Shown here: positions 18,330 through 23,667 of the stretch, piece after piece
Position numbering within the stretch: position 1 is the first letter of the stretch
How the letters are laid out: each line of letters starts with the position of its first letter
NCBI GenBank assembly: GCA_012034615.1
Contig: JAAUPA010000018.1
Location: 1-34,791 of the forward strand
Length of the DNA: 34,791 nt
Reading direction: 5' to 3'
DNA from: Leptolyngbyaceae cyanobacterium CSU_1_4
Lineage (GTDB): Bacteria > Cyanobacteriota > Cyanobacteriia > Elainellales > Elainellaceae
Program-made: the position numbers and the translations under genes
The notes under the pieces: model-generated
Database searches by the model: none
Told to the model about the DNA's origin: nothing
The model's input: only the letters and a program-made list of their open reading frames with translations

Positions 18330-20835
18330 ATGCCTTACCCGGTTTTACCGCCTACTCCACCACCTCTGATTCAATTTCAACCGCAAGGGGAATCTCTTCC
18401 TTTTGTTCCTGTTGATCCCTCTCCTTTCACAGCGCCCCTATCGCCAGAGTTTAGTTCTACAGCGTCCTCTCTATATCGCCCCCTAGAAGTGGGCATGAGC
18501 CGTAATGGGGTGAAACCCGAGAGTTCTCAGCCTCTTCTCATTCGGCTTCCTCCGGCACTCGATCGCTTGGCTGAGGCGAGGGAGATCTCTCAAGACGTTG
18601 TTCTGCCCTCTGTGCCGCCGACCTCTCTACCAGAAGGCGAGGCGTTGCCGTTGCCTACTCAGCCGCTGCCCCCATCGGCTCTGCCCGATGAAGCTGTACC
18701 CAATCCTGCTGGGGTGGATGAGAATCGGGTGGATGAGAATCGGGTGGATGAGAATCGGGTGGATGAGAATCGGGTGGATGAGGCTTTACCCGATAGAACT
18801 TTGCCAGATGGAGATTTGCCAGATAATGCGCTGCCAGATTATGTGCTGCCAGACAACATACTCCTAGATAATTCGCTGCCCGATAATATCGAACAGCAGT
18901 TTCCTTTAGAAATCCCCCGATCGCCCCTTCCCAGCAACATACCCGCCACTCCAGCGCCGAGGCTGCCCCCGCTTCCGAGTCCGCCCATACCCGGTGCTGA
19001 AAATGTGATTGAGCTGAATGCCGATCGCCAAGTTTATGATGAGCGCGGGCAGGTTTATCGGGCTCAAGGCAATGCAGTGATGCGGTTTCGGGGAGCAATA
19101 CTGAGCGCCGATCGCATTCAGGTCAACGTGCCGAACCGCATTGTGGTGGCTGAAGGTAATGCAGTGCTCACCCGAGGACAGCAAGTGATCAAGGGCGATC
19201 GCTTGGAATATAACTTGGTGCAAGGCGAAGGCATTTTCTTAGGAGCGAGCGGCGAGTTAGATTTGGGGGCGGCTGAATCGGATTTTTCTTCCGCCCTACC
19301 CACCGATGATGCGGCGCAGCGAGTTGCGACCCAAACAACGGGCGATCGCGTGACGGCAGCTCAGCCGGTGCAGGTCACTGGGGCAAATTCAGGCATCACG
19401 TTTGGCTTGACAGCAGGGAACAACCGCAATAACACCGCCACCGGCACAACGGGCGAAGTCCGACGACTGCGCTTTGAAGCCGAACAGATTGACTTTACTG
19501 CCGAAGGTTGGCAAGCCAGTAATGTTCGCATTACCAACGATCCTTTTTCACCGCCAGAGTTAGAGTTGCGATCGAACCGCGTTACGTTTACTCGTCTATC
19601 GCCGACTCGCAGCGAAATTCGGGCACGTCGTCCAGTTGCAGTTTTTGACCAAGGGCTGCGGCTGCCCTTACTGCGCGATCGCATCATTCTAGATAGCAGC
19701 GAACGCGACCCTGGCTTATTGCAATTTGGCTTTGATCAAGACGAGCGGGGTGGTTTTTTTATTGAGCGCACCTTTCAGGTTATCGCTAGCCCTTTAGTCA
19801 ACTTCAGCATCACACCGCAGGTTTTGTTGCAGCGCAGTTTAGACCAAGGGAATTTTTTTGATCCCTCCTCCTTTGGCTTAACCTCTCGCCTTAACGCCAC
19901 CCTGGGTCGCAATACCTCGATTGTGGGAAACGCAGTTTTGACCAGCCTTGATCTTCAAGATGTAGAAAATTCTTTACGAGCAAGCCTCCGGGCAAGACAA
20001 CGAATTGGCGATCATACGCTGGCGCTGGAGTACACCTACCGCGATCGCCTCTTCAACGGCTCTCTGGGCTTTCAAAACGTGCAGAGCAGCATTGGGTTTG
20101 TCATTACTTCTCCCATTATGCCCTCGGCACGACAGGCATTAACCTCAGCTATCAAGGGGGTGTGCAATACATTAATGCCAACACGGATCGCCCTGAACTG
20201 TTGGCAATATCCCGCGAAAACGATCGTGTTGATCTCACCCGCTATCAAGCCAGCGCTTCGATCAGTCGTCCCTTTACCCTTTGGCAAGGCACTGCGCTCC
20301 CTGCAACGCCCACTGAAGGCTTGCGATATAGCCCCGTACCCATTACGCCCTATTTAGTGCTTGCTCCTGGCGTTACGGGCGTATTCAGCGGTTACAGCAG
20401 CAACGAAACCCAATCAAGCTTGACCGGCTCTATCGGACTGTATGGGCAATTGGGTCATTTTTCAAAGCCAATTTTTGACTACACAGCCTTTAACATTTCC
20501 TACTCTAACCGCTTGCTCACTGGAGAATCCCCTTTTTATTCGATCGTATTGTCGATGAACAGGTTCTTTCGGCAGGCATCACGCAACAGATTTATGGACC
20601 GTTTCGCGTCGGCATCCAGACCGCTCTTAACCTCGATACAGGACGACAAATTGACACCACCTACTCGCTAGAGTACAAGCGTCGCGCCTATTCTTTATCC
20701 TTCAGCTTTAGCCCCGTCCGAGAAGCGGCAGCCGTCTCGCTCCAAATTAGCGACTTTAACTGGACAGGCGACCCAGGGCGGTTTTCAGGGCTGGGGGCAG
20801 ACACAGTCGATGGCGGGGTCAGGACAAGAAATTGA
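18330..20835 (+). CDS. DUF3769 LptD/OstA-like outer-membrane protein (two frame breaks)
   Basis: Repaired length is about 835 aa. The N-terminal 230 residues are Pro-rich and disordered, including four perfect VDENR repeats and LPD-type pentapeptides. An OstA/LptA-like beta domain follows (near ADRQVYDERGQVYRAQGNAVMRF, roughly 230-320). The remainder resembles a beta-barrel, with alternating residues and short turns, as in LptD, which inserts lipopolysaccharide in the outer membrane. The role is inferred from that resemblance. Frame breaks: one C missing at 20121-20123 (restores MPLGTTGINLSYQGG) and one T missing at 20533-20537 (restores SPFLFDRIVDEQ). The repaired stop is TGA 20833-20835, 15 bp from the convergent comFC end. 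Confidence 0.85.
18714..18890 (+). repeat. 15-bp coding minisatellite (VDENR x4, then degenerate LPD repeats)
   Basis: Four identical 15-bp units encoding VDENR span 18714-18773, with a partial fifth. They are followed to about 18890 by imperfect 15-bp units encoding LPD-x-x pentapeptides. The array is in frame, so gain or loss of units would change only the length of a disordered linker. Confidence 0.9.
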
Positions 20836-22337: not shown

Positions 22338-22394
22338 CCCAGAGGTCAAGAAGACGCATTTATTTTGCGATCGCTTGCTCTGGGTTTTATTTTT
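22338..22394 (+). terminator. intrinsic terminator downstream of infC
   Basis: CCCAGAG (22338-22344) pairs with CTCTGGG (22378-22384), with a smaller inner hairpin around the HIP1-like site, and is followed by TTTTATTTTT. It lies 18 bp after the infC stop and should separate infC from the decayed TIR gene. Confidence 0.7.
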
Positions 22395-22437
22395 GGGCGT
22401 GTCTATACTCGGGAGCATCCTGCCCCTGCTCGTCCGC

Positions 22438-23529
22438 ATGAACTCCCCATCTGAGTCTGATTCATTCCAATCATTCGATGTTTTTCTCTGCTACAACAGC
22501 AAAGATAAGTTGGCGATCCGGGCGATCGCCCAACAGCTAAGCGATCGCGGCCTTTCCTACTGGCTCGACGAGGAGCAGTTGCTCCCTGGTCGGCATTGTC
22601 CGTGCGACTCAGGAACAGGACATGCTGCGGCTGGGCGCGGTGGCGGTGTTTGTGGGGAAACATAGCATTGGCAAGTACCAAGATTTAGAAATCTCCACTT
22701 TCCTACCCGTGAACCGCGATCGCGGATTGCCCATTATTTCAGTGGTTCTCAACGATGCTCCACCCCAAACAACGCTACCGGGATTTCTAATGCCGTTTAC
22801 TTGGGTTGATTCGCCTGACTGATCCGAATCTGTTGGAGCAGTTAATCGTTGGGATTACGGGGGGGCGATCGCGGGGGGATCCGGTCGTGATTATCGAAAC
22901 GCCCCAAATTATTGACGCGGCGATCGCGGCGAATATTCCCAATAATTTAACGCGACAAGGGGCAATTGCCTTCGTGGGACGTACCCCCGAACTCGCCCAA
23001 CTGCATGATCTATTGCAACAAGAAACTCCCGTCGCCCTCTGTGCGGTGCAGGGTATGGGCGGCATTGGCAAAACCGAATTGGCGTTGCAGTTTGCTTATC
23101 AGGAGCGCGATCGCTAAACCTATCCCGGCGGCATCGCTTGGCTGGATGCGCGGCAAGCCATGCGATTGGGAAGCCTGCTCAATTTCCTGCAACAACTGCT
23201 CTTTCAGCGTCATAACTCTGCTCTCCGTCCATGCTGCTGGTTCGCATCCACAAATTGCCCAAGATTCTTTGCCCCAATCTTTTATTATTGTATCAAAAGA
23301 TCCTTCTCAAACAGCTCAAAGAGGCATTGCTGAATCACGTATGAATTTGCCCCCTAAATCTCCCATTCTGGGGGACTTTGAAAGGTTCGGAAGTCCCCCA
23401 GAATGAGGGATTTAGGGGGCGATCAGAGCCATAGCATCTCAAGGATTCATACTTCCATTCAGCAATGCCCTCAAAGACATAGGACAAGCGATCGCCTATT
23501 TGCACGCAGCCATAGAAGAAGGCACCTGA
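22438..23529 (+). pseudogene. decayed TIR-NB-ARC (STAND/NLR-like) gene
   Basis: Starts MNSPSESDSFQSFDVFLCY, with a TIR domain continuing through WLDEEQL and, in another frame, AVAVFVGKHSIGKYQDLEIS and LPIISVVLNDAP. A third frame carries an NB-ARC/STAND P-loop region: AFVGRTPELAQLHDLL and AVQGMGGIGKTELALQFAYQ. The breaks are a frame change near 22595-22600, another near 22810-22816, and a TAA at 23115-23117 followed by the family-like TYPGGIAWLDARQA. Only scraps follow, interrupted by a MITE-like element at 23323-23469. TIR-NLR proteins are NAD-consuming or abortive-infection sensors in bacterial defence; this copy is almost certainly inactive. Several lesions are not homopolymer changes, so this is real decay. 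Confidence 0.8.
23315..23477. mobile_element. 147-bp MITE-like element with 8-bp target-site duplications
   Basis: Element 23323-23469 begins GGCATTGCTGAAT and ends with the complement ATTCAGCAATGCC; the arms continue with GTATGAAT/ATTCATAC. Inside is a second inverted repeat of 30-bp arms (23349-23378 and 23391-23420, 28 of 30 matching, GCCCCCTAAATC at the tip) with a 12-nt loop. The octamer CTCAAAGA directly flanks both sides (23315-23322 and 23470-23477). Removing the element and one octamer joins a continuous reading frame, LLKQL before and KDIGQAIAYLHAAIEEGT after. No transposase is encoded, so it would depend on a related IS elsewhere. The parent family is not identified. Confidence 0.85.
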
Positions 23530-23667
23530 GATTGACTGGGTATCGCCCTTAAAAAAACCACCGCAGCCACAGCATCCGATCGCCTTGCAGCGCGGCATCA
23601 AGCCGAAAAACGTCCATGAGTCAGCTCGACAGGCGTGAACTTTCTCGCTGTATTCTTTAGGACAAAC
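23530..23667. other. decayed coding remnant
   Basis: In the same plus frame as the residue run ending AAIEEGT, after TGA-GAT-TGA, the sequence reads LGIALKKTTAATASDRL and ends AARHQAEKRP-stop at about 23619. It looks like the eroded end of a gene, possibly that of the TIR-NB-ARC protein. Nothing else is recognisable before the GT2 gene. Confidence 0.35.

Follow-up and report, generated by a model that had tools for sequence, protein, structure and literature searches.

A MITE with IS1-type ends in a Leptolyngbyaceae cyanobacterium, and its shared palindromic core with a loop in either orientation

In a stretch of 34,791 nucleotides from Leptolyngbyaceae cyanobacterium CSU_1_4 (the window), a 147-bp insert that has no transposase gene lies between two copies of the octamer CTCAAAGA and carries one set of inverted repeats nested inside another. 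This locus raises the question of what kind of element it is, what could have moved it, and what the inner palindrome represents. The duplications, the element, its inverted ends and its inner arms match base for base what the earlier note had described (Table 1). The 13-bp outer repeat GGCATTGCTGAAT is 100% complementary to the right end, while the inner arms of 30 nt each are 93% complementary and stand 12 nt apart, the whole core being a palindrome of 72 bp; an extra inverted pair, GTATGAAT / ATTCATAC, is located between the outer and the inner repeats.

Table 1. Parts of the insert and its host site, in window coordinates
Feature	Position	Strand	Remark
Left 8-bp target duplication CTCAAAGA	23315..23322	+	Equal length in other copies and in IS1-family IS
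Left terminal inverted repeat GGCATTGCTGAAT	23323..23335	+	Matching ends in IS1-family IS
Left subterminal piece of IS1-type shell, contains GTATGAAT	23336..23348	+	
Core palindrome, left arm (GCCCCCTAAATC...)	23349..23378	+	Common to other MITE shells
Core loop	23379..23390	+	Inverted in about half of copies
Core palindrome, right arm	23391..23420	+	
Right asymmetric shell piece (GATCAGAGCCATAGCATCTCAAGGATTCATAC...)	23421..23456	+	Several other copies 100% identical
Right terminal inverted repeat	23457..23469	+	
Right 8-bp target duplication CTCAAAGA	23470..23477	+	
Decayed TIR / NB-ARC (STAND-type) gene remnant, holds the insertion	22375..23667	+	Pfam TIR_2 2e-7, AAA_16 9e-6; frames broken

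The answer that we favour, with a probability of about 0.85, is a joint one: a MITE moved by an IS1-type transposase would have inserted here recently, its core, shared among MITE families, would be exchanged between them, and the loop of that core would be inverted by switching between the two arms.

When folded as single-stranded DNA, the 147-bp element reached −50.3 kcal/mol, compared with −19 ± 2.85 kcal/mol for its shuffles (z −11), and the 72-bp core folded alone was still nearly 9 standard deviations better than shuffled sequence. Such a very stable hairpin could be read as a regulatory or terminator element of the neighbouring gene; however, the sequence is multi-copy and has target duplications, and no terminator or promoter pattern is present at the element, so that we give this reading practically no weight. 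An intrinsic terminator was rejected, as the GC stem lacks a following T run, and an Rfam search returned nothing at threshold, the hairpin by itself having only weak matches to microRNAs. In the window, the HIP1 octamer GCGATCGC occurs 59 times against 0.5 expected, which marks the DNA as cyanobacterial, as do the hosts in which its IS relatives are found.

From the rest of the genome, it is clear that the insert is a repeated one. There are 110 pieces matching the 147-bp element, corresponding to dozens of full or partial copies, and the closest of them are 99, 94 and 93% identical to it. Exact ends of the GGCATTGCTGAAT type are found 52 times, compared with none for the reversed pattern. 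Perfect 8-bp duplications flank 11 of the 28 tabulated candidate end pairs, with about 0.0004 expected (the 28 rows stand for 27 elements, since row L022 re-pairs a left end already counted), and further pairs have an 8-bp duplication with one or two mismatches. This recurrence, together with the perfect duplications, makes the observation more than a matter of chance. The perfect duplications are 73% A+T, against 52% in the sampled background. Three kinds of element have these ends, namely the form of about 145 bp, a short form of 113 bp, and F2, a second family whose interior is different. The element is thus short, without a transposase gene, bounded by terminal repeats and fixed-length duplications, and dispersed in many copies, which are the properties by which bacterial MITEs are recognised. 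To judge from its sequence, the insert is best regarded as a non-autonomous MITE that is ordinary apart from its core, and the earlier view of a MITE with genuine target duplications is borne out by the 11 perfect pairs and the many genomic copies.

The insertion had also been called fairly recent. The window copy is 6% off the family consensus, the nearest among 20 copies, which agrees with a recent insertion, and its 99% identity to another copy points the same way. Across the family, divergence and broken duplications have a rank correlation of 0.43 (p 0.07).

The claim that removing the element restores a gene did not survive. The frame joined across the site, with the element removed, has 52 codons and is not continuous with the NB-ARC frame of the host, while the other two joined frames, of 69 and 148 codons, are open as well; since all three are open, a restored open frame is uninformative about a gene. 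The host, moreover, is itself a remnant disrupted by stops and frame changes. It sits between infC and a glycosyltransferase gene, and in a congeneric genome (G001) these two genes are only 28 bp apart. There, the whole intervening block is missing, and hence there is no empty site to compare. The TIR/NB-ARC gene would thus have been decaying before the element inserted into what was left of it, at a fairly recent date. Elsewhere in the window, an outer-membrane-type protein encoded at 18330-20357 was noticed to contain in-frame repeats in tandem (VDENRVDENR..., followed by LPDxxLPD...) at 18580-18900.

What could have moved such an element was sought among full-length insertion sequences. In its own assembly (379 contigs, which may miss some), no full-length IS with the MITE ends was found; the IS1 copies present there have other ends or are fragments, and a profile search of the genome for Pfam DDE_Tnp_1_3 gave none. 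In a relative (G018), a MITE end stands directly before the reading frame MQCPECGSTHIRKNGKKRGKQNH, and this pointed to IS1. The congeneric genome then provides an IS1 copy of 756 bp (L174) with the ends GGCGTTGCTGAAAGAGTAATGAA / GGCGTTGCTGGAAGAGTAATG and an intact ORF for a 229-aa transposase (Pfam DDE_Tnp_IS1, 2e-24). A scan of named genomes revealed many single-ORF IS1-family elements, mostly of 754-757 bp, that share the MITE ends, their hosts being Nostocales, Microcoleus, Gloeocapsa, Leptolyngbya, Nodosilinea and others. Perfect 8-bp duplications were found at 23 IS1-family copies in named cyanobacterial genomes, and the duplications of these relatives are 69% A+T. In its ends, in the length of its duplications and in its preference for AT-rich targets, the MITE agrees with the IS1-family elements, and the full-length IS with equal ends and 8-bp duplications that the earlier note had proposed to look for has been found, in the IS1 family.

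Compared with the single-ORF cyanobacterial IS1-family elements (about 755 bp, PF03400), the MITE has the same kind of ends, GGC(A/G)TTGCTGAAT, a GTATGAA-like subterminal sequence and 8-bp AT-rich target duplications, but it lacks the transposase gene and has a palindromic core instead. Because the ends and the 8-bp duplications are shared, IS1 is the likely transposase family for the MITE, mobilisation in trans being what we infer from these matches. The shell would derive from, or mimic the ends of, such an IS1-family element, and an IS1-type transposase would move the MITE in trans, duplicating 8 bp of AT-rich target.

IS6 and IS1595 elements both give 8-bp duplications and have GG ends, and the IS6 ends (GGCACTGTTGCAAA) resemble those of the MITE. 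An IS6- or IS1595-type transposase acting on the outer repeat would fit this likeness and the duplication length, but at the IS6 and IS1595 loci of relatives the MITE ends are not paired around the transposase, whereas at IS1 loci they are. We consider this alternative to be very improbable, and the IS6 and IS1595 elements of relatives were rejected as MITE partners since their ends do not match.

With IS1 as the likely source of the outer shell, the inner palindrome turned out to have a distribution of its own. Exact matches to GCCCCCTAAATC in the genome number 226, compared with 5 for its reversed control, and 40 of its sites outside the known MITE copies were read for their flanks. In the window's own genome, the same core is found between other flanks, in families with TAAGAGGATGTTTGAAAAGT, GGGCTACCGTGTATACACAAGT and TAAGAGAGTGTTTGTAAATA ends, and also within the IS1-type F2 and in what is left of a GGGAGTTGC-ended family. 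In G001, cores 95-97% identical to that of the window lie almost only inside the GGGAGTTGC-ended shell, which has 3-bp duplications in 11 of 13 cases, mostly TTA or TAA. One and the same core has thus been multiplied in two sister genomes, but in shells that are not the same and that different transposases would move. The inner palindrome had been suspected to be a second, older or functional, unit; a second unit it is, separable, shared and modular as judged from its presence in several shells, while "older" stays conjectural. It is a distinct module that several MITE families have in common, although their ends and their target duplications differ. A search of a plasmid collection gave a single weak hit, which was confined to the core.

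A few elements seem to be made up of halves of two different shells. L030 (1501-1670) and L031 (2001-2160) each consist of an IS1-type half and a TAAGAGGATG-type half joined at the core, and L285 (295-424) has a GGGAGTTGC-type half joined there to an IS1-type half; L081 in G001 is possibly another such case. L030 has no target duplication, as is expected of a recombinant. The cores would probably pass between shells by recombination or by template switching inside the near-identical hairpin.

One core within shells of unrelated ends, with 8-bp or 3-bp duplications, would also be seen if the core were an independent mobile element that inserts into MITEs without using their transposases. However, the core flanks show neither a duplication nor a common short target across contexts, no IS turned up that has GCCCCCTAAATC at its ends, and no clear or convincing core-less form of a shell was found among 60 genomes; the half-swapped elements are also better explained by recombination than by independent insertion of the core. 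We regard independent insertion as unlikely. One core-less candidate of 82 bp (L108) still has GGAGGC left over from the core and could have arisen by deletion.

Within the shared core, the loop was scored for its orientation against the asymmetric shell. In the 35 copies of G001 with the GGGAGTTGC shell, it points one way in 21 and the other way in 14. On a tree built from the shell only, this orientation needs 11 changes, compared with 11.2 when the labels are shuffled, and at least three orientation changes are forced by well-supported branches. Pairs of shells differing at one or two sites have equal orientation in 42% of 33 cases. The window's own family is similar, with 10 loops versus 9, and 7 changes versus 6.6 with shuffled labels. 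The loop orientation thus carries no trace of descent, so that inversion must be roughly as frequent as transposition, if not more so. Co-variation of the two arms is weak, with 4 double changes versus 1.1 in shuffles; as the shuffle maximum was 5, compensatory change does not clearly exceed chance. Smaller units flip too: inside one arm of L027, L373 and L374, the 5-nt centre of the sub-palindrome CCCCC(ATTCT)GGGGG reads AGAAT, which makes a second level of loop inversion.

Template switching between the hairpin arms would invert the loop and is the simplest mechanism; it would have to be frequent enough to erase the memory of descent from the orientation. Template switching at short inverted repeats has been described to homogenise the arms and to invert the spacer (PMC8604942). 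As in that yeast system (PMC8604942), a short spacer between near-perfect arms is inverted reversibly, but here the inversion affects dozens of MITE copies scattered over two genomes, in near-even proportions.

Both the loop orientations and the half-swapped elements might instead be artefacts of short-read assembly at hairpin repeats. The genome of the window is a draft in 379 contigs, several of which terminate within the element, and half-swapped elements could, in such a genome, be misassemblies at the repeated hairpin. The orientation is likewise near-even over the 35 copies of G001, however, which is in 30 contigs, and a core of 72 bp is short enough for ordinary reads to span together with unique flanks. 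Artefacts are therefore an improbable source of the pattern, and we prefer exchange of the core and inversion of its loop by switching between the arms. A stronger proposal, that the core is a recombination-prone cassette hopping between differently mobilised MITE families, making chimeras and having its loop inverted about once per transposition, is put forward tentatively and is doubtful as it stands; if true, individual events of transposition or hairpin processing could be read from the orientation of the loop.

The kinds of element and process involved here are already known, namely IS-derived MITEs, cyanobacterial MITEs, dispersed palindromes and spacer inversion. Nezha, which is reportedly a cyanobacterial MITE from the work of Zhou and co-workers in 2008, is likened to the present element by description, not by sequence. 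Both Nezha and the MITEs of Anabaena sp. 90 resemble it in being small and multi-copy, with terminal repeats, a stable secondary structure and occasional gene disruption. The latter MITEs are described in PMC3542288. Neither a core shared between MITE families nor loop inversion is described in the few cyanobacterial MITE reports covered. The core is also like REP and the GTAG- and CGTC-tagged palindromes (PMC3733652) in being GC-rich, dispersed and palindromic, but it begins and ends as GCCCCC...GGGGGC with no GTAG/CGTC tag, and it sits inside MITE shells. Searching the literature with the sequence of the element itself returned no relevant paper, the main cyanobacterial small-repeat papers (Zhou 2008, Elhai 2008) being outside its reach. 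Within that scope, a shared core with a randomised loop would be new. What is unusual about the element is this shared core with its flipping loop, the MITE itself being ordinary.

MITE classification usually rests on the ends. If one core is common to MITE families with different transposase types, MITEs would evolve by module exchange, and the sharing hints that the core itself may aid spread. Evidence for hairpin-mediated inversion has mostly come indirectly, through reporter assays and the genomes of organelles, and the near-random loop orientation offers a natural, countable record of it in bacteria.

The core is itself a target of other elements. ISAs1-like and other elements with (C/T)AGGG(C/T)TG-like ends have inserted repeatedly at nearly one point of it, within CCCCC-ATTCT-GGGGG (L006 1501-2858, L025 1501-2811, L303, L318, L320, L321, L322 and, in G001, L376), and two of these carry DDE_Tnp_1_assoc / DDE_Tnp_1 transposase genes; the pattern suggests that the palindromic core is a hot spot for insertion. 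In L006, an exact repeat of 20 bp, CCCCCGAATGGGGGATTTAG, borders the ISAs1-like element on both sides, at about 1600-1619 and 2808-2827, which exceeds the usual duplication length of the ISAs1-like family.
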